Notes under the pieces: generated by a model
The model's database searches: none
What the model saw: the letters and a program-made list of their open reading frames with translations, nothing else
What the model was told of the DNA's origin: nothing
Position numbers and translations under genes: made by a program
Origin: an uncultured Lachnospiraceae bacterium
GTDB lineage: Bacteria > Bacillota > Clostridia > Lachnospirales > Lachnospiraceae
Length of the DNA: 64,000 bases
Assembly: GCA_947564735.1 (NCBI GenBank)
Contig: CANOEC010000017.1
Span: 1-64,000, forward strand
Direction of reading: 5' to 3'
Shown: one piece after another, positions 5,740 through 64,000 of the stretch
How the letters are laid out: each line of letters begins with the position of its first letter
How positions within the stretch are numbered: the stretch's first letter is position 1

Positions 5740-8037
5740 CTACTCTTCCATCTCAATCGCCATTTTCCGTTCAACTTCTTTCGCTCCTTCCTCCGGCGTC
5801 AGTTCACCATCAAGCACCTTATGTCCGACCGCCCTGACATTTTCTTCCAGTAAGGTGCCCGTCCGATAACACCGGTCGGATTCTTCCATCATATCAAACA
5901 GCCACTGCAGTTCTTCCTCCGTCGGCCAGAAATAATCCTTGTACATCTTATCAATGTCACTGGCAGTCCAGCCCTTGACTTCGGCAAAGGAATGATTGTT
6001 GATATCCAGAATGGAAGCCAGAGAATCCTTTCTGATAGGAATCCCGCCGTCGAAATACCCTTCCAGCCACCATTTCTGCATCATTGTATCTGACAGGAGA
6101 AGCTCCATAAATGTCTCTCCAAGTTCCGCCTCTTTCGCCCGCGTACACAGCCCTACCATCGTTCTTGCCCGATAGACATTTCCCGCCTGACCTGTCATTC
6201 TCCCATAAACCACCTCATCCTCCAGCTTTTTATAGTAGGAATAGTTATTCCGGTAATTTTCCATTTTTGTATGCAGGTTCGTCATTCCGTACCATGTATT
6301 TTTCAGATATCCAAGGGCAATCCATGTCTCGCCGATATGATAGATATCTTCATACTGTCCAAACATGATATTTGTAGGATCCGCTTCCTCCTCCGCCAGA
6401 TCCTGCTGCCATTTGAGCCTCTGTTCGTCGCTCATTCCCGCACTGTCCAATTTCCACAGACTGTCCGCCGCCCGATAAAACTCCCTTAGGCTGTCCGTAT
6501 CCAGACTGCCATCCTCTTTCGTCCACGCAGGCAGACAAAGGGGAATTATCATGTCAAACAGATTTTCCTGACCGGGCGTATCGATAAGCGGTCCGTCCGG
6601 ATGTTCCTCTCTTGCCAGCTGCGCTCCCGCAATCATACCGTCCAGTCCCTGCATGTCATTCACATATTTCTTCTCACCAAAATACATTGGCAGTTCAACC
6701 GTCATCGGCACACCGTATATTTTGTTTTTCTCTGTCATGCGCATTCCATCCAGAATATTCTGATACAGGCTGCCTTCTTCCTCGTACGGTGCAAGCAAAT
6801 CATCCAGTTCCTTTAACACGCCTTTGTCCGCATACTGCTCCATATCAATATCGTCCAGTATGATCACATCCGGCACTTCTCCTGCAAGTATCCGCGTATT
6901 CAGATTTTTAAGCGCATCCTCCCTGCTGACGGCATTGTCACCGTCCATACCCGTCTCATATCTGACTAGCACATCCGGATGCTCCTTCTGAAAAAGCCTT
7001 CCCGCATAGCGGATACGCCCATTTTCCTCAAGACTATACACGGTGAGCTCTCTTGACGGGTGCGTCGGAAGCGTTTCATCATAGTACATCTCCACCATGT
7101 AGTTTCCGCTGAAATATACCCTGAACTGCCCATTCTCCATAATCTGCAATGCATACGGACGATACTGGCTGTCCCCTAAAGCAACCATCTGTCCGTCCGC
7201 AATCTGTTCAATGACAGAACCTCCCCATACATAGCGGTACAGACCGGTACGGCAGGCAAGATAAAGGACGATAGAGTTATCTTCATCCGCATCAGAGTCC
7301 TTCACCGCCGACACGATACGTCCGCTTTGGTGGGATGCCACAAATTCATTTAAGACATCATTCTCTTCAAGCAGCTTTTCTCCCGCCATGTCATAGAGAT
7401 AGGTCTTCTCTTTATCCAGTGCAATCATGACATTTTCGGCAAAGGCAAATTCACTTACCTGATTCTGCGTCTGAAACAGGCTCTCCGTCTCCCCGCTTTC
7501 CACGTTGATACGGTACACACAAGAGGCGGAGGCGGCATAGACCCTTCCATCCGGTGCAAATGCAAAATATTCCAGATTCGTCGCTTTCTGGTAATCCGGT
7601 CCATAAAGCTCCAGCGGATACCTGTCTCCCTGTTCACTCACATAATAATACAGATATCTGTTGTCTCCTTCCGCGGCATAAGCCTCATACTCTTCATCCG
7701 AATAAAACCGCGGCGTATATCCAAAAATCACTGCGCCGCCATCAGAAACGCCACAGGAAAATATGACGTGGATATTGGCATTCTCCCGCCAGCCCCATTT
7801 ATCACTGTTTATGGCGCCGTCTGCAGCCACATGCGTCAAACCCGTATCATTTCCGAAAAGATAGTAGCCGCCGTCCGGACATGGATGCATGTATTCATAT
7901 CCGGCACCCGGCAGCTTCACTTCCCTGTCCGCATACCGACCCAGCGGAATCTCCTCTTCCCTGCCGCCGCATGCCGCAAGCAACAGCGCACACATTACCG
8001 CAAGCGCTATATGCGGAAATCTGCACTTCCTATTCAC
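5740..8037 (-). CDS. Propeller/solute-binding fusion lipoprotein, paralog 1
   Basis: A lipoprotein of about 765 residues from the GTG at 8037, which follows GGGAGAAG; ATGs at 8076 and 8091 would lengthen the n-region. The signal peptide ends in the lipobox LLLAAC with Cys at about residue 23. Residues of about 25-350 form short repeated beta units (APDGRVYAASASCVYRIN, YLACRTGLYRYVWGGSVIEQ) like a propeller or sensor domain. From SRELTVYSLEENG onward a family-1 solute-binding domain follows (LFQKEHPDVLVRYETG, GEVPDVIILDD). It is closely similar to the next gene upstream throughout. It probably captures a sugar outside the cell for the adjacent permeases. The fusion is well over the roughly 430 residues usual for such binding proteins. 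Confidence 0.85.
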   Translation of the reverse strand: MNRKCRFPHIALAVMCALLLAACGGREEEIPLGRYADREVKLPGAGYEYMHPCPDGGYYLFGNDTGLTHVAADGAINSDKWGWRENANIHVIFSCGVSDGGAVIFGYTPRFYSDEEYEAYAAEGDNRYLYYYVSEQGDRYPLELYGPDYQKATNLEYFAFAPDGRVYAASASCVYRINVESGETESLFQTQNQVSEFAFAENVMIALDKEKTYLYDMAGEKLLEENDVLNEFVASHQSGRIVSAVKDSDADEDNSIVLYLACRTGLYRYVWGGSVIEQIADGQMVALGDSQYRPYALQIMENGQFRVYFSGNYMVEMYYDETLPTHPSRELTVYSLEENGRIRYAGRLFQKEHPDVLVRYETGMDGDNAVSREDALKNLNTRILAGEVPDVIILDDIDMEQYADKGVLKELDDLLAPYEEEGSLYQNILDGMRMTEKNKIYGVPMTVELPMYFGEKKYVNDMQGLDGMIAGAQLAREEHPDGPLIDTPGQENLFDMIIPLCLPAWTKEDGSLDTDSLREFYRAADSLWKLDSAGMSDEQRLKWQQDLAEEEADPTNIMFGQYEDIYHIGETWIALGYLKNTWYGMTNLHTKMENYRNNYSYYKKLEDEVVYGRMTGQAGNVYRARTMVGLCTRAKEAELGETFMELLLSDTMMQKWWLEGYFDGGIPIRKDSLASILDINNHSFAEVKGWTASDIDKMYKDYFWPTEEELQWLFDMMEESDRCYRTGTLLEENVRAVGHKVLDGELTPEEGAKEVERKMAIEMEE

Positions 8038-8083
8038 TGACTTCTCCCGAATCCTTCCTCTTAGCCTCATCTGCATCCTGCTC

Positions 8084-10504
8084 CTATTCATTCATCTCAA
8101 TCGCCATTTTCCGTTCAACTTCCCTTGCTCCTTCCTCCGGCGTCAAATCACCGTCAAGCACCATAAGTCCAACCTCCATGGCACATTCCTCCAGCATCGT
8201 CCCGGGGCGGTAACAGCAGTCGGCGTCTTCCATCATCTGATAAATCCACTGTTTCTCTTCCTCTGTCGCCCAAGTTATCTCTGTATTCAATACACCGGGA
8301 TCCTTCCACCCCATAACTTCTCCAAATTCCACATTGTTGATATCCATGATGTCACTCAGCGAATCCTTGCGTATCGTGATGCCGCTCTGGTTCCGCGGTT
8401 TGTCCAGCCACCATTTCCGCATCATCGTATCGGAGAGGAGCAGTTCCATATACGCTTCGGCAAGTTCCGGCTCTTTCGCCTGTTCACACAATCCCACAAT
8501 GATCTTTGCCCAGTAAACATTGTCCGCCTGTCCCGTATACTCTCCATAGGTCACCACATCTTCAAGCTGTTTTGTCTGCCACTGCGCCGTCATATTTTTC
8601 TTTATCACATGTATCCTTGATGAACCGACCCATGGATTTAGCAGGAAACCGACCTGCATCCATGTCTCACCAAAGTTTTGCTGTGCGCTGTACTGATAAT
8701 CAAACCCGATATCTATCATAGCCGTATCATTTGGCTCATAATATTCTGTCATATTCTGCTGCCACAGTTCACGTGCTGCGCCGCTTAAACCGGCTGTGTC
8801 TAATTCCCACATTTTTGCTACTGACTGATAATACGCCGTCAGTTTCTCCACATTGAGGCTTCCGTCCTCCCCCGTCCATGCCGGCAGGCAGACCGGCATC
8901 GTCTGTCTCAGCAAGTCTTTCGGATAGGGCGTGTTGAGTATCGGTCCCTCCGGGTGCTTCTGTCTCGCCAGTTCCATGCCGGCAATGATATCCTCCAGAC
9001 TGTCTTCTCCTCCCAGATACATCTCTTCCCCAAGCCAGAGCGGAAGGTAAACCATCATCGGCACGCTGTATATCTTCTCCTTATCCGTCATCCGCATCCC
9101 TTCCACGATGTTCCGGTACAGTATCCCGTCATCCAGATAGGGCTGCAGCATCCCGTCTAACTCCTTTAGCACGCCTTTTTCGGCATACTGCTCGATATCC
9201 ATCTCGTCTAATACGAGCACATCCGGCACATCCCCGGCAAGCAGACGTGTGTTCAGGTTCTTTAATGCATCCTCTTTGCTGACCGCATTATCTCCTTCCA
9301 TGCCCGTCTCATATCTTACAAGCACGTCGGGATGCTCCTTCTGGAAGAGCTGTCCCGCATAACGAATCCAGCCGCTCTCACGTAAACTATATACCGTCAG
9401 TTCTCTGGATGGTTTTGCAGGCAGTGTCTCATCATAATACATCTCCACCATGTAGTTTGCGCCAAACAGAACGCGGAATTCTCCATTGTCAAGTACCTGC
9501 AGGGCAAGCGGGCTTCGCTGGCTATCTCCAAGCGCCGTCATCTGCCCGTCGGCAATCTGTTCGATGACCGACCCGCCCCATATGTAGCGGTACAATCCGG
9601 TACGGCATGCGATGTACACAACCGTCACATCTCCATTCCCCGCCGCCAATGCATCTGCTCCGCCCTCTGACGATGCGCCGGCAGACCCTGTGTCCCCGCT
9701 TTCTCCCTCTTCGGACGTCTCCATGATATTCACATTGATATCCTTATCAGATACCGCCATCACAAGACCGCCTGCCGTATGGCTGGCGATAAAATCACTG
9801 AGCACGCTGTTCTCATCTAACAGTTTCCTTTCCGTCATGTCATAGAGATAAGCCTTCTCCTTATCCGCCGCAAGAAGCACATCCTCCACAAACAGGATGG
9901 ACTGCACCCGCCCTGCCGTGGCAAACAAGCTGTCTGTCTTCCCGGTTCCCGGATCAATTCGGTACACGTTGGAATCGGACGCCGCATAAAGACTTCCGTC
10001 GGGTGAAAAGGCAAATACGTTCAGATTGGTTCCTTTCCGGTAATCTTCCCCGTAGGGCTCAAGCGCGGACTGCTTTCCTGCTTCATCCACATAATAGTAC
10101 AGATAGCGGGTATCTCCTTCCAGCCACAACGTTTCCAGCTCTTCATCGACCCAGAACTTGGGCGTATAGGAAAAGACAGCCGCCCCGTTATCCGACACCC
10201 CGACTTCATATTTCACACGGATATTCGCCATGTTCTCCCAGCCCCAGTTCTTTTCCTTGGCGACGCCCTCCGCATCCACATAAGTCAGATTGGTCTCCGT
10301 ACCATACAGATAGTAGCCGCCGTCCGGACATACGTGCATATATCCAAAAGTACCCGGCGGCAGCTTCACCTCCCTGTCCGCATACCTTCCCATCGGAATC
10401 TCTTCTTCCCTGCTGCCGCATGCCGCAAGCAACATCCCGCATAAGACAGCCGCCGCTGCCGCCATACATTTCCTCTTAATACGCTTCCTGCTCTCTTTCC
10501 CCAT
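8084..10504 (-). CDS. Propeller/solute-binding fusion lipoprotein, paralog 2
   Basis: An 806-residue lipoprotein: basic n-region, hydrophobic segment and lipobox LLAAC with Cys29. As in its paralog, an N-terminal half of beta-repeat character (PDGSLYAASDSNVYRID, YIACRTGLYRYIWGGSVIEQ) precedes a C-terminal family-1 binding half (LFQKEHPDVLVRYETGMEGD, DVPDVLVLDEMDIEQYAEKG). Relative to paralog 1 it has a Gly/Ser/Ala/Glu-rich insert of about 35 residues near residue 260, probably a flexible loop. It is the first gene of the importer operon and is divergent from the two-component genes, which makes regulation by that system plausible. The likely origin is tandem duplication followed by moderate divergence. 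Confidence 0.85.
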   Translation of the reverse strand: MGKESRKRIKRKCMAAAAAVLCGMLLAACGSREEEIPMGRYADREVKLPPGTFGYMHVCPDGGYYLYGTETNLTYVDAEGVAKEKNWGWENMANIRVKYEVGVSDNGAAVFSYTPKFWVDEELETLWLEGDTRYLYYYVDEAGKQSALEPYGEDYRKGTNLNVFAFSPDGSLYAASDSNVYRIDPGTGKTDSLFATAGRVQSILFVEDVLLAADKEKAYLYDMTERKLLDENSVLSDFIASHTAGGLVMAVSDKDINVNIMETSEEGESGDTGSAGASSEGGADALAAGNGDVTVVYIACRTGLYRYIWGGSVIEQIADGQMTALGDSQRSPLALQVLDNGEFRVLFGANYMVEMYYDETLPAKPSRELTVYSLRESGWIRYAGQLFQKEHPDVLVRYETGMEGDNAVSKEDALKNLNTRLLAGDVPDVLVLDEMDIEQYAEKGVLKELDGMLQPYLDDGILYRNIVEGMRMTDKEKIYSVPMMVYLPLWLGEEMYLGGEDSLEDIIAGMELARQKHPEGPILNTPYPKDLLRQTMPVCLPAWTGEDGSLNVEKLTAYYQSVAKMWELDTAGLSGAARELWQQNMTEYYEPNDTAMIDIGFDYQYSAQQNFGETWMQVGFLLNPWVGSSRIHVIKKNMTAQWQTKQLEDVVTYGEYTGQADNVYWAKIIVGLCEQAKEPELAEAYMELLLSDTMMRKWWLDKPRNQSGITIRKDSLSDIMDINNVEFGEVMGWKDPGVLNTEITWATEEEKQWIYQMMEDADCCYRPGTMLEECAMEVGLMVLDGDLTPEEGAREVERKMAIEMNE

Positions 10505-39449: not shown

Positions 39450-40205
39450 TCAATCCGCCGAATATGCCGCTATCACATCCATGATACTGTTTTTCCCGAT
39501 ATTCCCGTTTAGGACATCGCCGTTTGGCGAAAAACTGATTGTCCGCACATCCTTCGGGTCTTCCTCATAGGGACTGACATATTCCTTCGTCTCATCAAAA
39601 TATTCACCCAGATACTTTACTGCATTTCCGCTGGGAAATATCACATTCCCCGGAGCGGTCTCTATTCCCATCTGCGTAAATATCTGCAAAATCTCTCTGG
39701 TTTTTACATTATACGAATTATCGTCCTCCTTGCTCACAAGCCATGCCGGGCTTGTCCGCAGCATCATGTCCGTCTTCTGCACGCATTCTGCAAAGTATCT
39801 GACCGGCTCAAGGGGAATCCTTTCCTGATGAAATGCATCCACGGACAAGGCAACATTCCCTACGCCGCTCTCAGCCAGCATATCGACTACTTCTTGGATG
39901 CGCTTCTCATCCCTGCTGAAAAAACCGTTGGTAATCAAATCCCTTCTTTGAATGTTCATCTTTTTTGCCGCTTTATGAATTTGGCATACAATTTCCGGAT
40001 AAAGCAGCGGTTCGCCGCCAAAGGTCATGAGCGATTCTATTTGATAATGCTCACATACTTCATAAATTGCCCTTACGGCGGCATCTCCGTCAATAGGTTC
40101 TCCGCCCAAAGTATGCTCTCCCTCCGAGCAATGCCGGCATCTGCCCGTGCATGCCCATGTTACGACAAATTCTATGCGGTTTAAATTTTTCAGATATTCA
40201 TTCAT
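39450..40205 (-). CDS. Radical SAM protein of unknown function
   Basis: A 251-residue radical SAM enzyme. The [4Fe-4S]-binding CX3CX2C motif is CTGRCRHC, and the SAM-binding GGEP motif is FGGEPLLY; LITNGFFS follows. There is no SPASM cysteine cluster at the C-terminus, unlike the radical SAM proteins at the end of the window. It lies 15 bases downstream of the large helicase gene and may be cotranscribed with it, but no functional link is apparent. The substrate is unknown. Confidence 0.85.
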   Translation of the reverse strand: MNEYLKNLNRIEFVVTWACTGRCRHCSEGEHTLGGEPIDGDAAVRAIYEVCEHYQIESLMTFGGEPLLYPEIVCQIHKAAKKMNIQRRDLITNGFFSRDEKRIQEVVDMLAESGVGNVALSVDAFHQERIPLEPVRYFAECVQKTDMMLRTSPAWLVSKEDDNSYNVKTREILQIFTQMGIETAPGNVIFPSGNAVKYLGEYFDETKEYVSPYEEDPKDVRTISFSPNGDVLNGNIGKNSIMDVIAAYSAD

Positions 40206-56694: not shown

Positions 56695-57861
56695 TCAGTC
56701 AATTACCATGTTGTCTTTTCTATATTTCGACTGAACATCAATGAAATCTTCATACATCTTTCCATATTTGCAATAAAGCCCAGCCGATTTAATTAGAGCA
56801 TTCCACTTTTTTATCTTGCTGATATTTCTGTATAGACATGCATATGTTCTCCATCTGTCATAAATATCTTTTTCAAGTTTTGTCACAATTGTTTTAATAT
56901 CTGAACTATCATCAATTCCCATTTTATCCTCTGTGAAATATGAATCCTCCGTAACTTCATCTTCATATATTTCCTTTGAAGTTTTCACGCTTTCCTTCAA
57001 ACCTAGTGCATTTGAAGTTGTCACGTTGTTCGACAAATTTTTCTTTCTAATCCAATCAAGCATTTTCGTATTAAGAATTATCTTATAATAAACATTGTCA
57101 GCAACTCTTTCGCATGTCTCGCAGTTCGACAACAACTCTTCCACACTAATCCTTGGTCTATCAATAAATGCATACACATTATCCTCACCATAGTTGTATT
57201 GAAAATGACTTTCATTTATCGTAATCAAATTAGTTACCATCAGAAGTCTATACACCAAATCAAGATCTTCACTCGCCCTCATTCGTTCATCGAACATTCC
57301 AATCTGCTCCAACAAATCCTTTTTTACAACAATTGTATTGATATGGAAGCAGTAAAAATCCGTTTTTAATATGTACATTAATAGTCGTTCGTCGAATTTC
57401 CAATACTTGTTCTCTCTTGTAATACTCAAATCATTTGCCATGTTATTAAACATCATATCGAACCAACCAAATGAGCCTACCGTATATTTCTTTCCCCATT
57501 TGTTAACATCCCACAACGCACTAACAAACTTCGCATCATTACTTTTCATAGCAATAGCAGACTCGGTCAAATGATTCGTGAACCAAACATCATCCGAATC
57601 AAGAAAAGCAATATACTCCCCTTTAGCTGCACATATTCCGGAATTTCTCGCTCCTGAAGGTCCTTTCATTCTGTTGTTATTTATCATTTTAATTCTAGAA
57701 TCAGTCTTACATATTTCTTCGACACGATTTCTTGTATGATCGGTCGAAGCATCATCCACCACAATTAGCTCCCAGTCAGTATATGACTGATTAATAACCG
57801 AAGATATTGCATCAAGTACTGTATTCTCTCTGTTACACACTGGCATAATTACACTAATCAC
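56695..57861 (-). CDS. Family-2 glycosyltransferase of the radical SAM cluster
   Basis: A 388-residue GT-A glycosyltransferase. The GTG at 57861 is chosen for AAGGAGG six bases upstream. It opens VISVIMPVCNRENTVLDAI, has ELIVVDDASTDHT, GARNSGICAAKG and the metal site FLDSDDVW; the C-terminal 170 residues are helical and charged. It is the last gene of the AT-rich cluster and ends 20 bases before the IS3 element. It could glycosylate the product of the cluster, or belong to surface-polysaccharide synthesis; nothing in sequence decides. Confidence 0.85.
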   Translation of the reverse strand: MISVIMPVCNRENTVLDAISSVINQSYTDWELIVVDDASTDHTRNRVEEICKTDSRIKMINNNRMKGPSGARNSGICAAKGEYIAFLDSDDVWFTNHLTESAIAMKSNDAKFVSALWDVNKWGKKYTVGSFGWFDMMFNNMANDLSITRENKYWKFDERLLMYILKTDFYCFHINTIVVKKDLLEQIGMFDERMRASEDLDLVYRLLMVTNLITINESHFQYNYGEDNVYAFIDRPRISVEELLSNCETCERVADNVYYKIILNTKMLDWIRKKNLSNNVTTSNALGLKESVKTSKEIYEDEVTEDSYFTEDKMGIDDSSDIKTIVTKLEKDIYDRWRTYACLYRNISKIKKWNALIKSAGLYCKYGKMYEDFIDVQSKYRKDNMVID

Positions 57862-57920
57862 AGCTTTCCTCCTTAATTGCATCCAGAACAAACTCTTATA
57901 TTTCCAAAACAAACCTTTGA

Positions 57921-58493
57921 CTACATCCCGAATGGAACTCTTCCTATTATATTGTCCTTCTCCAAAATACGTGTTTCTTCTCCATATATTAATGAATTGT
58001 CAGCCCCTATTCTAAAATAGTTTACATTCTCATACTCACTTACGCGCTTCATAAATTCTTTTATTGTTATATCGTCAAATATTACATTCGCTTTCTCTTT
58101 CTTCCTTTGTTCCTCACCTAAATTATTCTCATTTTGAGCATCCGTAAAAGCAATTGCAAACTCTATCCCAAGAATTCTACATTTTTTCATTGCAAGTTTA
58201 ATACTTTCTAATTGCTTAAATTCCTTGCAAATATATATCGCCTTACTTATCTGACCAAAATACGAATCAACAACGCTATTGTTTATATCCTGATGCGACC
58301 CAATCAAAATGTGCGTGTTCATTTTCAACTGATAATTAATCTGTAGTATTTTCTCTGTATATAAATTCTCTTCCATACCCTTTAATAGCACAATACTACT
58401 GCCATATTTAGAGTATTCCGAACACACCTCTTCGTATTTTTCTATTTCAATTGCTCTTTCCATCGAATAAAACAAAATATACGGCACCTTCAT
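57921..58493 (-). CDS. Unknown protein, possibly a cysteine-free radical SAM relic
   Basis: A protein of 190 residues (ATG at 58493 behind AAAGG; an ATG at 58508 is possible). By eye the order of segments parallels the radical SAM/SPASM proteins upstream: EIEKYEEVCSEYSKYGSSIV corresponds to the strand before GGEP, KMNTHILIGSHQD to TNGT, SKAIYICKEFKQLESI to the SLDG strand, and NYFRIGADNSLIYGEETRIL to the SPASM entry strand (RTDGAVSPC). The CX3CX2C, GGEP and SPASM cysteines are all absent, so it could not be a catalyst of that kind. It may be a non-catalytic partner. The comparison is visual and uncertain. Confidence 0.55.
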   Translation of the reverse strand: MKVPYILFYSMERAIEIEKYEEVCSEYSKYGSSIVLLKGMEENLYTEKILQINYQLKMNTHILIGSHQDINNSVVDSYFGQISKAIYICKEFKQLESIKLAMKKCRILGIEFAIAFTDAQNENNLGEEQRKKEKANVIFDDITIKEFMKRVSEYENVNYFRIGADNSLIYGEETRILEKDNIIGRVPFGM

Positions 58494-58504
58494 AGCTATA
58501 CCTT

Positions 58505-58552
58505 TCATGCAAATTCTTTCGCATTCAGCGAATCCTCATACCTCTCAAGCAT
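58505..58552 (-). other. 15-codon mini-ORF between cluster genes
   Basis: The ATG at 58552 opens MLERYEDSLNAKEFA, ending in a TGA that overlaps an ATG of the next gene (ATGA at 58508). An AAGG lies eight bases upstream inside the end of the PqqD-fusion gene. It could be a translational-coupling leader, a tiny peptide substrate, or chance. Confidence 0.3.
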
Positions 58553-58555
58553 TTT

Positions 58556-59311
58556 CTAAACCTTACGGATTAGCCCCATCGCCTCTAGTTTCGTCAGATA
58601 TTGCATTACTATCTCCTCGTTCAGTCCCACAATTCTCGCAAGACTCTCTTTTTCATTAATTCCATTACATTTTAGCCATATGAGCGCCGCATTATCATCA
58701 ACATCTACTATCTCAAATCGTTTCTCATCAAACAGCTCAACCTTCCCATCCGCTATTCTCCACCTAATACCATTACTCTTTATATACCGTTGCTCCTTTG
58801 CATCAATCGCCTCAATGTAATTGTTTCCATATTTCAAAAACAGCCCCTGTCCGTTTATCTGATACTCTCTTTTCGCATTTCCCGGCAACAGCTCATCAAT
58901 CAAAACAGTTCCTTCCGTGTCAATAATCTGATATGGAGTTTCCTCACCACTCTTATTTTTCAGAGTAAAATGAATCAATTCACCTATAAAGTCAATCTCC
59001 CTCACCTCAATATCATCTACATAATAATAATCAGCTATCGAGGAAAATGATTCAATTACTCTACCGTCCAAATGCATCTTTGTCCGGGCGTGATTCTTAC
59101 CAGCAATTTCCTGTTCGCTGGTATAATGAGAAAAATATTGTTCCCTTGTACCTATAGCCAGCTGACTACCCTCGAACTTGTCTATAACAGATCCCCTAGA
59201 ATCAATAATCGTCAAAGCATAATTCAACATTTTCATTTTACCAGCATTAACCGTCTTAAAATGAATTATTACATCCTCACATTTTGCTACTCTTTTGGGA
59301 AATATCGACAT
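58556..59311 (-). CDS. Beta-sandwich protein with C-terminal PqqD-like (RRE) domain
   Basis: A 251-residue protein. Residues of about 1-150 look like two Ig/CARDB-like beta-sandwich units (YALTIIDSRGSVIDKFEGSQ, then IHFTLKNKSGEETPYQIIDT). The last 60 residues (VELFDEKRFEIVDVDDNAAL, IWLKCNGINEKESLARIVGL, then a final helix KLEAMGLIRKV) have the strand-strand-helix-helix pattern of PqqD, the domain that binds RiPP leader peptides. PqqD-like domains are normally alone or fused to the radical SAM enzyme, so this fusion is unusual. AAAGGAT precedes the ATG. It lies between the PP-loop gene and the radical SAM relic, in one operon. Confidence 0.65.
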   Translation of the reverse strand: MSIFPKRVAKCEDVIIHFKTVNAGKMKMLNYALTIIDSRGSVIDKFEGSQLAIGTREQYFSHYTSEQEIAGKNHARTKMHLDGRVIESFSSIADYYYVDDIEVREIDFIGELIHFTLKNKSGEETPYQIIDTEGTVLIDELLPGNAKREYQINGQGLFLKYGNNYIEAIDAKEQRYIKSNGIRWRIADGKVELFDEKRFEIVDVDDNAALIWLKCNGINEKESLARIVGLNEEIVMQYLTKLEAMGLIRKV

Positions 59312-59365
59312 CGAATTCTATATCCTTTCTGGTGGTATTTGCGCCGCTAGAAGAGCATTTGCTAC

Positions 59366-60250
59366 TTAGGATTCTGTGTCATTTCTACCTAATTTCAACG
59401 CTTCCTGCCTACTTATATAGCCCATTCTTATATCATAATTCCACTCGTTAATATCTAGTTCATATTTGTTTTTGTGATAGAACATATCCCTTGCTTCTTT
59501 GTGATACGTGCAATCGAAATGTTCTTCCTTATTCTGCCGCCACCCGAGCTGCATATCCAAATCTTTTTCCATCTCTTCCTGTGTTACATCGTGATAAAAA
59601 AAATATCCAATGTATGGTAATGGCTCACTGTCAGCATATGCATAATAATTCAGAAGAGCCTCCTTGTATTTCTCATTTTGATACATTTCACTAAAAGGTC
59701 GTTCCCCCTTATTGAGACCATATGTGCCAAACATTTGCCGCCTTGATCTTCCGTGAAATACATAATCAACATTGTATTTTCTTGCCTCATTCATAATTGC
59801 AGTATACATTATCTGCGAGCATCCAAGACAAGGTGCCCCGCTAATTTCAATTGACGTATCGTAAGCCATCTTCAAAAGGTTCTTATCTAACACAATGAAT
59901 ATGTGGTCAACCCCTAGCTTTTCAGTGCTTCTAACCACATTCTCCTTAGCAAGTTCAGACAGATATCCGTTGTCAAACGTAACAGCCAATACCCTCATAT
60001 TGTACTTTGTTACCAGTTTCAACAAGACATACGAGCTGTCTTTACCACCCGATACTCCTAATATGGCATCATATTTTTTTCTGCTATTTTTACACTTATT
60101 GACTTCATCGAGAAATGACTTTTCCAGTGCGTCGCACTTGCATAAGGCATTTTTGATTTTGGGAAATGACCTGCAAGCATTACATAGACCATCTCTAATC
60201 TCAACGTATGGCATTGTAGAATTGTTCAAACATTGGCAACATTCTTTCAT
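59366..60250 (-). CDS. WbuX/WbpG-like PP-loop ATPase (N-acetyl sugar amidotransferase type)
   Basis: A 294-residue enzyme. The N-terminal zinc-ribbon-like cysteines (CCQC and CNAC, residues about 4-26) and the PP-loop GVSGGKDSSYVL (about residue 65) match the N-acetyl sugar amidotransferases WbpG/WbuX, which adenylate a sugar carbonyl and use ammonia to form an acetamidino group. AVTFDNGYLSELAKENV and APCLGC (a possible second metal or thiol site) follow. The ammonia-supplying HisH/HisF-like partners are not in the window. A role other than sugar amidation, for example amidation or thiolation of a peptide, is possible. No clear ribosome binding site precedes the ATG. Confidence 0.75.
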   Translation of the reverse strand: MKECCQCLNNSTMPYVEIRDGLCNACRSFPKIKNALCKCDALEKSFLDEVNKCKNSRKKYDAILGVSGGKDSSYVLLKLVTKYNMRVLAVTFDNGYLSELAKENVVRSTEKLGVDHIFIVLDKNLLKMAYDTSIEISGAPCLGCSQIMYTAIMNEARKYNVDYVFHGRSRRQMFGTYGLNKGERPFSEMYQNEKYKEALLNYYAYADSEPLPYIGYFFYHDVTQEEMEKDLDMQLGWRQNKEEHFDCTYHKEARDMFYHKNKYELDINEWNYDIRMGYISRQEALKLGRNDTES

Positions 60251-60469
60251 GATATATTTTCTATAAGGCTAACGTCGTAGTCTCATTCCCTTTCCTGTCA
60301 TAATTATGCAAAAAAATCAGGTTGTCTGCCTTCAGCATTCCTACCATAAACCTTGGCTGTCATCAGGTGTGTCAATTTCTTACATAAGCACGCCTTTAGT
60401 CTGACCACTTTTCAGCCTAACTTATTCTTATGCCACGCCACCTAATTGCAATCGTATAGTTCCTAGGCT
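60251..60469 (-). other. Intergenic gap within the radical SAM cluster
   Basis: A 219-base gap between the third radical SAM gene and the PP-loop gene, otherwise the widest in this tightly packed cluster. It holds only very short reading frames (for example MTAKVYGRNAEGRQPDFFA on the minus strand) without good ribosome binding sites. No terminator hairpin was recognised; a promoter for the downstream genes could lie here. Confidence 0.4.
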
Positions 60470-61429
60470 TTACAGCGGGCACATTTCATCCTTCTCGAAT
60501 ATTCCCGAATATGCTCTGCACCCTCCACATACGTAGTTAAACTCACATTTACCGCACTTATAGAAATCTCGATTTCGCAATTTTTCAAGTATCGGAGAGT
60601 TGTTCCATATTGTGCTAAAATCATTTTCATGAAGATCACCAACCTTTTCTCTGAGGAATATACAAGGATATACTACACCATTACTATCTATTCCAATACT
60701 TTTAACTCCTGCTGTACAACTCATTCTATCATTGTCTACATTTGCACCGTCTTTCATCATAAGAATTGGAAGAATCGGATCATCTATTGCAATATCAAGT
60801 GTTTCCGAATAGATTTTGCTTAATTCAAGTATTTTCCGAAGATATTCTTCCTTTGGTGGAAGTAGCGAGATGTTCTCTTTTCCTTTTCCTGCTGGGACAA
60901 CGCGTCGATAGAAGATTCTATCAATTCCAATCTCATTGGCTACATCAAGATTATACATTAACGTACTTAGATTTCTGCTTGTAATAGTAACATTCATCTG
61001 CGTTCTAAGTCCTAATGATTTCGCATATTTTAAAGCTTCAATTGCTCTCTCATATGCGCCATCAACACCTCTAAAGCTGTCATGAAGTTCCCTTGGACCA
61101 TCAAGTGACACCTGTAGAAAGCTTAAACCATTGTCTACAAGTTCCTTTCCAATCTTACTAAACAGCCATCCGTTAGAAGATAATCCAACATCAATACTTG
61201 CCTTTGTTAATCTGCTAACAATACTTACAATTCTCGGATTAACCAAAGGTTCACCGCCAGATATATTAACAGACAGAATATCATTTTCTATTATCTCTTC
61301 AATAATCTTATTTTCCAAATTCACATCTTCACTGATGCTAGACATATATGCACGACAATGAGGGCATTTGTAATTACAATTATTGGTGATTTCCCATACA
61401 ACAGCTATTGGTGATTTTAATTTATTCAT
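60470..61429 (-). CDS. Radical SAM/SPASM protein 3
   Basis: A 319-residue enzyme. CX3CX2C is CNYKCPHC (about residue 20), the GGEP motif is ISGGEPLVN, and LSSNGWLFS and VSLDGPRELHD follow. The SPASM domain has CTAGVKSIGIDSNGVVYPC and the cluster CGKCEFNYVCGGCRA, ending CPL, enough for one or two auxiliary [4Fe-4S] clusters. SPASM enzymes mainly modify peptides (thioether, C-C crosslinks, decarboxylation). The ATG at 61429 overlaps the stop of the preceding gene (ATGA); GTGGAG lies upstream. Confidence 0.9.
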   Translation of the reverse strand: MNKLKSPIAVVWEITNNCNYKCPHCRAYMSSISEDVNLENKIIEEIIENDILSVNISGGEPLVNPRIVSIVSRLTKASIDVGLSSNGWLFSKIGKELVDNGLSFLQVSLDGPRELHDSFRGVDGAYERAIEALKYAKSLGLRTQMNVTITSRNLSTLMYNLDVANEIGIDRIFYRRVVPAGKGKENISLLPPKEEYLRKILELSKIYSETLDIAIDDPILPILMMKDGANVDNDRMSCTAGVKSIGIDSNGVVYPCIFLREKVGDLHENDFSTIWNNSPILEKLRNRDFYKCGKCEFNYVCGGCRAYSGIFEKDEMCPL

Positions 61430-62436
61430 AGAAAACACTCCACATCCTCGCCCAAATAGTCTCCAGTTAATAAAAATGCTGCAGCTCGGCATCCGCCACA
61501 CACAAGGCGATAATCACATCTTCCACATTTACCTAACAACTTTCTATTTAGTAGATTTTCAAATACATCTGAAGAATATATATCTTCTATAGAATTCTTG
61601 ATAATATTTCCATACGATACATCCAGTAACGAGCATGGCGATACTGCTCCATCAGTTCTTATAGCAGGTCCACCTATTGCAGCAGAACATCCCGTACACT
61701 TAAGGTTATATTTTTTCATTATCTCATTTGCCATATCAGCATTCTCAATGTTCTTCTGCGGGAAATCACACACAATACGGGTATACTTCTCGTATTTCTT
61801 TGAATATAAATCAATCTTATCATACAGTTCCTTCAAGCCCTCTTTACCAAGATTATATTTTCCAGCCATAACATTTTTAGGAATATAGCGTTTAAAACCG
61901 ATTATCTGTATAGGAAAATTCTTCTCAAAAATTAGAAATTCAATAAAATCCTCCATTTTGCTAATATTAAGCATCGATATAACAGAGCTAATATGGACAT
62001 TAATTTGATCTGAATATTCGCATAAAAGCGCAATATTAGCAATAGTGGTCTTAAATGTACCTTCGCCTCTGGTCGCATCATGCTCCTGCTCAAGTCCATC
62101 AAGACTTATCTGAAAATAATTCACTCCTGCTTCGATAAGTTGCTCAATCAGCTCCCTGTTCAGAAGTGTTCCATTAGTATTAATTGTTATTACAGGAATA
62201 TAGCTCTTAACAAGCTCAATTGCCTGAACTATATCCTTTCTTACAAGTGGCTCACCTCCACTAATAAATATTGCTTTAGTGTGGTATTCGTGCAATTTCT
62301 TACAGATAGTCTCAATCTCTGCAAGAGACATGTTATATTTAATCTTTTCAAGTCGGCAATGCTTACAACGAAGGTTGCAATCAGTAGTAATATCAATGGT
62401 TGCCGTATACAAATATCTGTATAATGTCTCGTTCAT
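61426..62436 (-). CDS. Radical SAM/SPASM protein 2
   Basis: A 336-residue enzyme starting at 62436 behind AAGGAG. CX3CX2C is CNLRCKHC, GGEP is ISGGEPLVRKD, then TINTNGTLLNRE and ISLDGLEQEHDATRGEG. The SPASM part has CSAAIGGPAIRTDGAVSPC, CGRCDYRLVCGGCRAA and a final Cys in LGEDVECFL, the same ending as in protein 1 (LGEDTVCWR). The shared ending suggests that proteins 1 and 2 are recent paralogs. It is translationally coupled to protein 3 through a four-base overlap. Confidence 0.9.
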   Translation of the reverse strand: MNETLYRYLYTATIDITTDCNLRCKHCRLEKIKYNMSLAEIETICKKLHEYHTKAIFISGGEPLVRKDIVQAIELVKSYIPVITINTNGTLLNRELIEQLIEAGVNYFQISLDGLEQEHDATRGEGTFKTTIANIALLCEYSDQINVHISSVISMLNISKMEDFIEFLIFEKNFPIQIIGFKRYIPKNVMAGKYNLGKEGLKELYDKIDLYSKKYEKYTRIVCDFPQKNIENADMANEIMKKYNLKCTGCSAAIGGPAIRTDGAVSPCSLLDVSYGNIIKNSIEDIYSSDVFENLLNRKLLGKCGRCDYRLVCGGCRAAAFLLTGDYLGEDVECFL

Positions 62437-62522
62437 CCTGTGCTCCTTACTTATATTATTCTGACATTTTACCAGCCTCAACCTATGAATGACTTATTAT
62501 TTCAAATCTCTAGGTAAATGAT

Positions 62523-62747
62523 TCATTTTGGGGAAAATATGGCATTAATGCACTTCAGAAACGTTACAATCCTATCCTCTGAATCCAATTCAGCACTTTT
62601 TCCCTTATCCATAGAAAGCAGGATATCTTTTCCTCTCCCCTTAATAAAATACATTTCGCCGGATAGAAGATTATACAGAAGCATCGTGTCCTCATCTTCT
62701 TTTCTAAATCTATATAACTTGATGTTAAATGATGCTACCTCCAGCAT
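62523..62747 (-). CDS. Stand-alone PqqD-like peptide-recognition protein
   Basis: A 74-residue protein: strands LEVASFNIKLYRF, then DTMLLYNLLSGEMYFIKG and ILLSMDKGKS, then a helix IVTFLKCINAIF. Size and the LLYN-x3-SGEMYFI pattern fit PqqD/RRE proteins, which bind the leader of a precursor peptide and present it to the radical SAM enzyme. It overlaps radical SAM protein 1 by 13 bases and precedes protein 2, the arrangement expected for a partner protein. It is short by some 15 residues compared with PqqD, at the C-terminus. Confidence 0.65.
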   Translation of the reverse strand: MLEVASFNIKLYRFRKEDEDTMLLYNLLSGEMYFIKGRGKDILLSMDKGKSAELDSEDRIVTFLKCINAIFSPK

Positions 62748-63739
62748 ACTGTATCCTCCCCAAGATAATCTCCATTAATTATATATGGATTCGCTCTGCA
62801 ACCGCCACCGCATTCATCAAGATGTGAGCAAATCTTACATTTCCCTTTTAACAAATTACGATTTCGAAAGCCATGGAACAATTCACCATTCTTCCATATG
62901 TCTTCAAGTAAACTCTTTCTAACGTTACCCGTAGAGGTTACCATTGCAAAACACGGTGACACATCGCCGTTTGCGAAAATTGTCAATTCAGACACTCCGG
63001 CCGGGCAATTGCCTTTCATTCCATTAATGCGAAAATCCCCACACAGAACCACATAAGGAATATCGATTCCGATTTCAAAGTCTGTATACTTTTTCTGAAT
63101 GTCATCCAATTTATAGACAAATGCTTTTATTTCGTCTGGTTGAAGCGACAAGCTCTTTATATTTTTACCTCGCCCGTCTGGTGATAGTAACGGAAGACAC
63201 CATCTTGACACCCCGAGACTCACCAAAAAATCAGCCATCTTTTCTATTTCTTCAATATTATTATGGGATACACATGTAGATACAGCAACATTAATGCCTC
63301 GCTGACTCATTTTACTAATTGCACTTACAGCTTTGTCAAATGTGCCCTCGCTCTTTCTCCAACTGTCATGCTTTTCTCTTATATGGCTATCAAGACTTAT
63401 TCTAACCGACTGAAACTTCCACAGTTGCTCGTTTACCAACTTATCAGTTATCAGCGTACCATTAGTTGTTACAGACACATTGATACCTTTTTGAAATGCA
63501 TAGTCACATACCTCAAAGAAATCACTGCGAAGAAGTGGCTCCCCACCTGTCATCAATATTGCTTTTACTTTATTATCTGCAAGTTCGTCGATTACTGACT
63601 TACATTCGCTTGTTATCAGTTCATCTTCCCATGCACATCCACTATCCATATTGCAATGCACACACTGTAAATTACATTTATTAGTAATGCTCCAACCCAC
63701 CACATATGGAAATTTTGGATATTTTATCTCTTTATTCAT
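62735..63739 (-). CDS. Radical SAM/SPASM protein 1
   Basis: A 334-residue enzyme. CX3CX2C is CNLQCVHC (about residue 23), GGEP is MTGGEPLLRSD, followed by VTTNGTLITDK and ISLDSHIREKHDSWRKSEG. The SPASM domain has CPAGVSELTIFANGDVSPC and CKICSHLDECGGGCRA with a final Cys in LGEDTVCWR. AGAAAGGG lies about 12 bases ahead of the ATG. It is the most upstream complete gene of the cluster in this window. Confidence 0.9.
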   Translation of the reverse strand: MNKEIKYPKFPYVVGWSITNKCNLQCVHCNMDSGCAWEDELITSECKSVIDELADNKVKAILMTGGEPLLRSDFFEVCDYAFQKGINVSVTTNGTLITDKLVNEQLWKFQSVRISLDSHIREKHDSWRKSEGTFDKAVSAISKMSQRGINVAVSTCVSHNNIEEIEKMADFLVSLGVSRWCLPLLSPDGRGKNIKSLSLQPDEIKAFVYKLDDIQKKYTDFEIGIDIPYVVLCGDFRINGMKGNCPAGVSELTIFANGDVSPCFAMVTSTGNVRKSLLEDIWKNGELFHGFRNRNLLKGKCKICSHLDECGGGCRANPYIINGDYLGEDTVCWR

Positions 63740-63799
63740 CTATTTCGCATACCCTTTCTGAATACTAAATATCACACTCTTTAATAATTGTTCCGACAT
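63740..63799 (-). other. 19-codon mini-ORF ahead of radical SAM protein 1
   Basis: The ATG at 63799 opens MSEQLLKSVIFSIQKGYAK, ending in a TAG that directly abuts the radical SAM ATG. Size and position are those of a small precursor such as PqqA (about 23 residues), but the ribosome binding site is weak (GAAGAAG, far upstream) and the peptide lacks a Cys or paired Glu/Tyr typical of known substrates. Confidence 0.3.
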
Positions 63800-63830
63800 T
63801 TAGTAACAATGCTTCTTCAACTCATATTCC

Positions 63831-64000
63831 TTATAGCGCAAATATCTTTACTAGATTGCGTCCCATTAATATATCAAATGCTTTTATAAGTGTTTCAGAA
63901 TCTGCATTCAATATGGTTTTAGACTTATCCCATACAGTTCCACCTTCGAGTTCAAACCATAACTGTGCCAAAAATCCATGCAAAAATAGTAACTCACCTT
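63831..64000 (-). CDS. C-terminal end of an unknown cluster gene (truncated by window)
   Basis: The minus strand reads an open frame from the window edge to a TAA at 63833-63831: GELLFLHGFLAQLWFELEGG, then TVWDKSKTILNADSETLIKA and a final helix DILMGRNLVKIFAL. The 55 visible residues are not enough to identify a family; the pattern is helical. It is the next upstream member of the cluster. Confidence 0.6.
   Translation of the reverse strand, partial: GELLFLHGFLAQLWFELEGGTVWDKSKTILNADSETLIKAFDILMGRNLVKIFAL

Follow-up and report, generated by a model that had tools for sequence, protein, structure and literature searches.

What do three radical S-adenosylmethionine (rSAM)/SPASM enzymes make when their genes stand together in one tightly packed row, as they do at the right end of a 64,000-nucleotide stretch of DNA (the window, meaning here the whole stretch analysed) from an uncultured Lachnospiraceae bacterium? 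An earlier note, made from the sequence alone, had proposed a peptide-maturation pathway of the SPASM/PqqD kind with a precursor gene possibly beyond the window. The proposal has held up: a linked precursor, a conserved peptide core and a small protein with the predicted fold of a RiPP recognition element (RRE; RiPP, ribosomally synthesized and post-translationally modified peptide) were found. With a probability of about 0.84, the locus encodes the biosynthesis of a RiPP family not described before, mycofactocin-like in logic but built on three SPASM enzymes and a core of the form CxxCDxN. The literature search, which did not reach subscription papers, found no earlier description of the cluster. 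The gene set probably turns the Cys-bearing tail of a 30-residue peptide into a small molecule via three radical enzymes. Its core consists of the following features:

64755-64847, minus strand, same contig but past the end of the window: precursor gene, 30 amino acids (aa), MTEDKKVEEQKLLEEIEEISKVVCMKCDVN
64429-64754, same contig but past the end of the window: intergenic stretch with hairpins
63831..64424 (the window holds 63831..64000), minus strand: RRE-A, 197 aa, TTG start, C-terminal part RRE-like
62735..63739, minus strand: rSAM1, radical SAM/SPASM enzyme by Pfam, 334 aa
62523..62747, minus strand: RRE-B, 74 aa, stand-alone RRE by predicted fold
61426..62436, minus strand: rSAM2, radical SAM/SPASM enzyme by Pfam, 336 aa
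60470..61429, minus strand: rSAM3, radical SAM/SPASM enzyme by Pfam, 319 aa
58556..59311, minus strand: RRE-C, 251 aa, two immunoglobulin (Ig)-like domains and a C-terminal winged helix, predicted

The precursor gene came to light on extending the contig rightward, where it was first spotted by eye upstream of the operon, 330 bases from the RRE-A gene. It is preceded by an AGGAGG site and a promoter-like TTGAAA-17-TATGAT (read by eye), and is the sole good match within its genome (E 1.2e-13; next E 0.47). Relatives were sought in the genome contigs of 84,980 species, the query being an alignment of rSAM2, placed first, with rSAM1 and rSAM3; 86 stretches matched, giving 50 loci, of which nine (L031-L039) carry the core. 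As the scan relied on two peptide patterns, nine is a lower bound. All nine are in metagenome-assembled genomes (MAGs) whose titles read Clostridia bacterium or Firmicutes bacterium. In 7 of the 9 loci the order precursor, RRE-A, rSAM1, RRE-B, rSAM2, rSAM3, RRE-C is complete, whereas L033 stops inside rSAM3 and L034 starts inside rSAM1 at contig ends. The core genes, whose linkage the earlier note had made a touchstone, thus stay together in homologous loci, while the flanking genes differ between genomes. Since the core recurs in nine other genomes, the cluster is more than chance. The precursors of L031 and L032 were matched to MTEDKKVEEQKLLEEIEEISKVVCMKCDVN by BLAST (E 7e-7), and those of six further loci lie at the same position:

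L031 and L032 (identical): MEKFEAKETNINQVLREELEEICTVKCMSCDVN
L033: MKENDNVNQEELEEITSVSCGTCDVN
L035: MKENNNVNQEELEEITSVSCGTCDVN
L036: MRENDNENQNELEEITSVSCGTCDIN
L037: MKENENQVELEEIVSVSCGTCDSN
L038: MKENENQVELEEIVSVSCGTCDTN
L039: MEEKELEEVVSVSCGTCDIN

A short precursor is conserved alongside the modifying enzymes in the window's cluster and in all eight related loci (of nine) that reach upstream of RRE-A; in these eight it has 20-33 aa and a LEE(I/V) leader followed by a C-terminal CxxCDxN. C-x-x-C-D is present in all nine precursors (eight distinct sequences), each of which has Asn as its last residue. The motif was derived from these precursors, and hence the test was its occurrence elsewhere, namely in the 41 other rSAM loci of the same scan. 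Among short open reading frames (ORFs) with a ribosome site, the CxxCDxN ending was found in 8 of 68 in the nine cluster loci and in 0 of 681 in the 41 others; in the same sets the leader pattern [EQ]LEE[IV] was found 8 times and 0 times, respectively, the window precursor's own leader being LLEEI. In the closest pairs, L033/L035 and L037/L038, there are three silent codon differences and one that changes the amino acid; the silent/changing counts are 2/4 for L033/L036 and 3/5 for L035/L036, with the changes mostly in the leader.

All three enzymes have Radical_SAM (PF04055) and SPASM (PF13186) domains above the Pfam cut-offs, as had been read from their motifs: rSAM1 with 82.8 and 39.6 bits, rSAM2 with 93.1 and 32.5 bits, and rSAM3 with 74.7 and 41.0 bits. 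Alignment with relatives places the likely start of rSAM2 at 62436 and that of rSAM3 at 61429, giving a 4-base overlap with rSAM2. Identities are 47-49% for rSAM1 in 8 relatives, 46-54% for rSAM2 in 9 relatives (47-56% as given by the scan, in which the next best locus has 29%) and 55-59% for rSAM3 in 8 relatives. The CxxxCxxC motif and the SPASM Cys tail are kept in all 28 rSAM sequences listed, and in a FastTree tree the orthologs of rSAM1 and rSAM3 each form a clade (support 1.000), with the rSAM2 orthologs as the remainder. None reached the cut-off of a model for a known system: 1) MftC (TIGR03962, cut-off 265), 168.2, 113.1 and 78.1 bits for rSAM1, rSAM3 and rSAM2, respectively; 2) PqqE (TIGR02109, 381.35), 100.6, 76.7 and 69.1 bits; 3) PapB (NF047865, 340), 88.0, 83.7 and 69.0 bits; and 4) GeoRSP (TIGR04303, 400), 171.7, 171.1 and 105.3 bits. 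Among solved structures, SkfB and 5wgg, both sactipeptide enzymes, are closest in sequence to the rSAM2 family. A further radical SAM-like gene (CTGRCRHC, read by eye) lies at 39450-40205 of the window, distant from the cluster.

The small proteins were harder to place. The earlier note had called the 74-aa protein a stand-alone PqqD-like protein; Pfam searches of the three small proteins, run up to E 10, do not list PF05402 (PqqD), but the predicted structure of RRE-B (pLDDT 91.2) has RREs as its best structural matches. These matches have weak Foldseek E-values and are tied by MINA53, a chain that is not an RRE. An RRE (PqqD-like) fold for RRE-B is supported by this model, and the proposal, which profile searches could have overturned by placing the small proteins outside PqqD, stands, since Pfam and NCBIfam place them nowhere and the 74-aa fold is RRE-like. 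Family profiles of RRE-A and RRE-B align over 40 columns (E 2.3e-5, probability 76) in the C-terminal part of RRE-A. By BLAST, RRE-A matches L031 and L032 only (E 8e-11); those of L033 and L035-L039 form a mutually matching set, linked to the RRE-A gene of the window by position and alignment (16-22% identity). RRE-C is predicted to have two Ig-like domains followed by strands at 182-202 and three helices at 206-244 (winged helix). This is only consistent with the fused PqqD-like end that had been claimed for it, as the fold searches, dominated by the Ig-like part, list no RRE among the rows shown and the RRE-C and RRE-A profiles match at E 0.006 (probability 6). Against the PDB by sequence, the RRE-B protein and the RRE-A profile gave no match and RRE-C gave three chance-level matches; no RRE-C ortholog was found in 98 relatives other than its own genome. 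According to the available part of the RRE-Finder paper (PMC7470986), PF05402 misses many RREs, and a PqqD-like protein with enzymes, regulators and transporters for neighbours is a strong sign of a RiPP cluster that depends on an RRE. In the part available of a 2025 study (PMC12710340), a well-characterised RiPP protein is reported as fused to or lying close to about 60% of the study's RREs, and rSAMs are among the common examples.

The cluster is rare and patchy in the genomes searched: a genus search around one MAG gave hits in 4 of 146 genomes, and at family level 6 of 390 were hit, five of them already known and the sixth a different multi-rSAM cluster. The sole rSAM1 match at E 1e-45 among 396 others of the window's family (L009) is, by eye, a different system. 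In viral contigs, 13 rSAM loci were matched. Three Spirochaetota loci (L040-L042) have two SPASM-type genes about 1 kb apart, about 30% like rSAM1, and no CxxCDxN peptide was found in them. A Candidatus Omnitrophota contig (L043, 2-12705) has eight ORFs in a row within 13 kb that match the window rSAMs by BLAST.

The remaining genes of the row are accessory:

59366..60250, minus strand: PP-loop ATPase (SGGKDSS), WbuX-related
57921..58508, minus strand: protein without known family, 195 aa
56695..57912, minus strand: family 2 glycosyltransferase (GT2), PF00535 and PF10111

All eight genes that the earlier note had listed as running in one direction are ORFs on the minus strand. Its gene list was sound in its core idea but too wide, taking in these three, and too short, missing the precursor and the RRE-A gene (63831-64424). 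The glycosyltransferase was correctly named: it has PF00535 at residues 20-146 (120.7 bits) and PF10111 at residues 20-292, with no GT2 model matching past 292. The PP-loop protein, with N-terminal Cys pairs and a PP-loop motif as in WbuX/WbpG, is indeed closest to TIGR03573, but its 133.9 bits are under the cut-off of 203.2. The 195-aa protein has no Pfam family up to E 10. A likeness to MsbA (19.5 bits against a cut-off of 602) was judged chance; in shuffling tests of kinship with a 136-aa protein of L031 and of its being a degenerate rSAM (best of five comparisons), 301 of 500 and 19 of 200 shuffles, respectively, were equally good, and neither idea was supported. A separate BLAST matched it to a gene of L037 (E 0.004 over about 45 residues).

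None of the three, offered in the note as parts of a shared pathway, has a convincing match in the eight related loci with a downstream side (L033 being cut). Their sole match in an all-against-all BLAST of the nine loci, between the PP-loop protein and a 458-aa ORF of L036 (21.5% identity, E 0.005), was judged chance. In that comparison, the only sense-strand families common to at least three of the six groups were the core, an amidohydrolase (8 of 9 loci) and a GNAT protein (7 of 9, L033 being cut and L039 having none); the L036 copies score 39.5 bits (PF04909) and 64.7 bits (PF00583), respectively. L039 also has an M3 oligoendopeptidase-like gene (TIGR00181, 148.1 bits; cut-off 490.55). Because the PP-loop, GT2 and 195-aa genes stand where the relatives have the amidohydrolase and GNAT genes, the accessory part would thus be exchangeable, or the window copy may have lost and gained parts.

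PP-loop relatives were found in 1 of 290 others of the class (E 1e-20) and 6 of 347 others of the phylum (E 1e-12), none an ortholog, and BLAST found no window-rSAM relative near these genes (about 1-1.5 kb per side in 6 of 7 genomes, 17 kb in L010). A genome-contig scan with the PP-loop query gave 30 stretches, none a relative; 13 plasmid records each had less than 60% identity, and none was found in viral contigs. In L010, the WbuX-like gene (7232-8296) is followed, by eye, by a phosphoenolpyruvate synthase-like gene and two AMP ligase-like genes, not a sugar locus, and in a Roseovarius pelagicus plasmid (L092, 6001-6903) a WbuX-like PP-loop stretch lies within a large nonribosomal peptide synthetase gene. 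A distinct cluster (L093, G1510:C115:4000-17227) has about six rSAM/SPASM-type genes next to one for a PP-loop ATPase (PF01171) and so again combines a PP-loop protein with many SPASM enzymes; two of its SPASM genes have no Radical_SAM match at E 0.001.

The AT-rich stretch looks like borrowed DNA: G+C is 36.0% in the cluster with its extension versus 49.0% in window bases 1-55000, and transposase genes stand on both sides (rve and HTH_21 domains on the left; DDE and IS66 transposases on the right). The contig ends at 70570, and its 6.6 kb past the window hold two transposase genes and a 431-aa ORF without a Pfam match; the export and protease genes that the note had thought might lie there were not recognised. 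Between precursor and operon lie strong hairpins, an 81-nt part having -43.7 kcal/mol (z -6.4) and 58 nt at the precursor stop z -2.6. A hairpin follows the precursor stop in all seven loci folded (L032 and L035 left out), with sequences that differ between loci; at most 3 of 200 shuffles fold equally well in six loci and 16 of 200 in L039, a weak case. The intergenic hairpins are single copy in the genome, which rules out a genome repeat, and no known RNA was matched in Rfam (L002:1500-3200, E 0.1). The hairpin after the precursor could allow precursor to be made in excess over the enzymes.

Several points weigh against an intact RiPP cluster with thioether chemistry. i) The window core lacks the adjoining amidohydrolase and GNAT genes that recur in the relatives, so that the window cluster may be an incomplete or altered copy; the amidohydrolase was not matched elsewhere in the window's genome, although the empty result of this search weighs little. 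ii) Summed over every pairing of eight precursor loci (L032 was omitted, being identical to L031), the last 13 codons have 97 silent and 101 amino-acid-changing differences, by themselves no strong sign of purifying selection. iii) Because the best NCBIfam models are NirJ2 (rSAM1), TIGR04053 (rSAM2) and GeoRSP (rSAM3), all under cut-off, the chemistry may be other than thioether formation. iv) The RRE-B and RRE-C profiles do not match (probability 0.3), the winged helix is absent from RRE-C in 3 of 7 homologs aligned, and none of the small proteins tested receives a name from Pfam, NCBIfam or PHROGs. v) The relatives are MAGs, close pairs reduce the nine to about six groups, and all come from one rSAM2-led query. 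vi) Upstream in L036 is a gene that looks ZIP-like by eye.

If the locus is a RiPP cluster, the LEE(I/V) leader would bind RRE-B (and RRE-A), and the three SPASM enzymes would act one after another on the C-terminal core. At least one might form a PapB-like thioether between Cys1 and the Asp of C-X3-D, and another might act on Cys2 or the C-terminal Asn; a peptidase would then remove the leader, leaving a product of about 7-10 residues. In the window version, the PP-loop ATPase could add an amide or sulfur on an activated carbonyl, and the GT2 could decorate the product, as MftF decorates mycofactocin. As the core has no recurrent transporter gene next to it, transport genes having been sought by recurrence and by eye only, the product is more probably a cofactor or metal ligand used inside the cell than a secreted antibiotic. 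More specifically, and tentatively, it may be a novel redox cofactor or metal ligand that Clostridia derive from a peptide, formed by three successive SPASM enzymes on CxxCDxN and, in the window's strain, glycosylated and amidated or thiolated; this is possible but short of probable.

The same core could instead be that of a secreted, thioether-bridged antimicrobial of the ranthipeptide or sactipeptide type, its export and immunity genes lying at other places in the genome. Two cysteines and an Asp at CX3D spacing, as in PapA, and the kinship of rSAM2 with SkfB and 5wgg would fit such a product, but it is unlikely given a precursor of just 20-33 aa with two Cys in its core, PapB model scores of only 69-88 bits against 340, and flanks in which no transporter or immunity family recurs. 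SPASM enzymes might also modify residues around an intact CxxC that chelates copper, zinc or nickel. The CxxC kept in all nine precursors and the small size of the product speak for this metal-binding peptide, which we nevertheless consider improbable, as no metal-uptake family recurs beside the core and three radical enzymes would leave few unmodified positions in so short a core. A surface sugar, with a WbuX-like amidotransferase, a GT2 and SPASM enzymes acting on sugars, is very improbable: TIGR03573 similarity, the GT2 and the annotation of 6 of the 10 plasmid records listed for PP-loop relatives as N-acetyl sugar amidotransferase favour it, but the WbuX cut-off is not reached and related loci keep the precursor, RRE and SPASM genes without a convincing match to either sugar-type gene.

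Few peptide-derived redox cofactors are known, examples being pyrroloquinoline quinone (PQQ) and mycofactocin. A new one in Clostridia, if true, would be a new piece of anaerobic metabolism. As a RiPP system the cluster is also short and open to experiment, since its substrate has only 20-33 aa and a fixed pattern at the C-terminus and the order of action of its three SPASM enzymes could be read by mass, and its three small RRE-like candidates beside three rSAM enzymes make a natural test of one recognition partner per enzyme.

Compared with known systems, the PP-loop gene resembles the WbuX/WbpG N-acetyl sugar amidotransferases in its PP-loop motif and N-terminal Cys pairs, but it is under the TIGR03573 cut-off, and its neighbours are RiPP core genes rather than recognised sugar-nucleotide genes. 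In GeoRSP (TIGR04303) and SynChlorMet cassettes, SPASM enzymes occur with PqqD-like partners; none of the three rSAMs reaches the GeoRSP cut-off, and the literature search found nothing pertinent on these cassettes. The PQQ system (PqqA/D/E) likewise pairs a small stand-alone RRE with a SPASM enzyme. The PqqA core is Glu-Tyr, whereas none of the eight distinct precursors here contains Tyr, and the TIGR02109 cut-off is not reached. PapB, in the available part of PMC9413430, links the Cys of CX3D through a thioether to the Asp beta-carbon; the cluster shares this spacing (C-x-x-C-D from the first Cys) and a SPASM-type enzyme with PapA/PapB, but has one core motif rather than six, a second Cys within the motif, three enzymes and a separate RRE, and the NF047865 cut-off is not reached. 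From mycofactocin the cluster differs in its core (CxxCDxN, always ending in Asn, versus Val-Tyr) and its three SPASM enzymes, which reach neither the TIGR03962 nor the TIGR03965 cut-off; by eye, no profile search having been made for them, no MftD- or MftE-like gene was recognised beside the core. Mycofactocin biosynthesis, as far as the available part of PMC7491314 describes it, uses a 31-aa precursor, a chaperone, a radical SAM enzyme acting on the last residues, a peptidase and sugar transfer by a GT2; the window cluster resembles it in having a precursor of about 30 aa (MftA, 31 aa) with the core at the C-terminus, a separate chaperone-type partner (MftB), a radical SAM enzyme (MftC) and a PF00535 GT2 (MftF).

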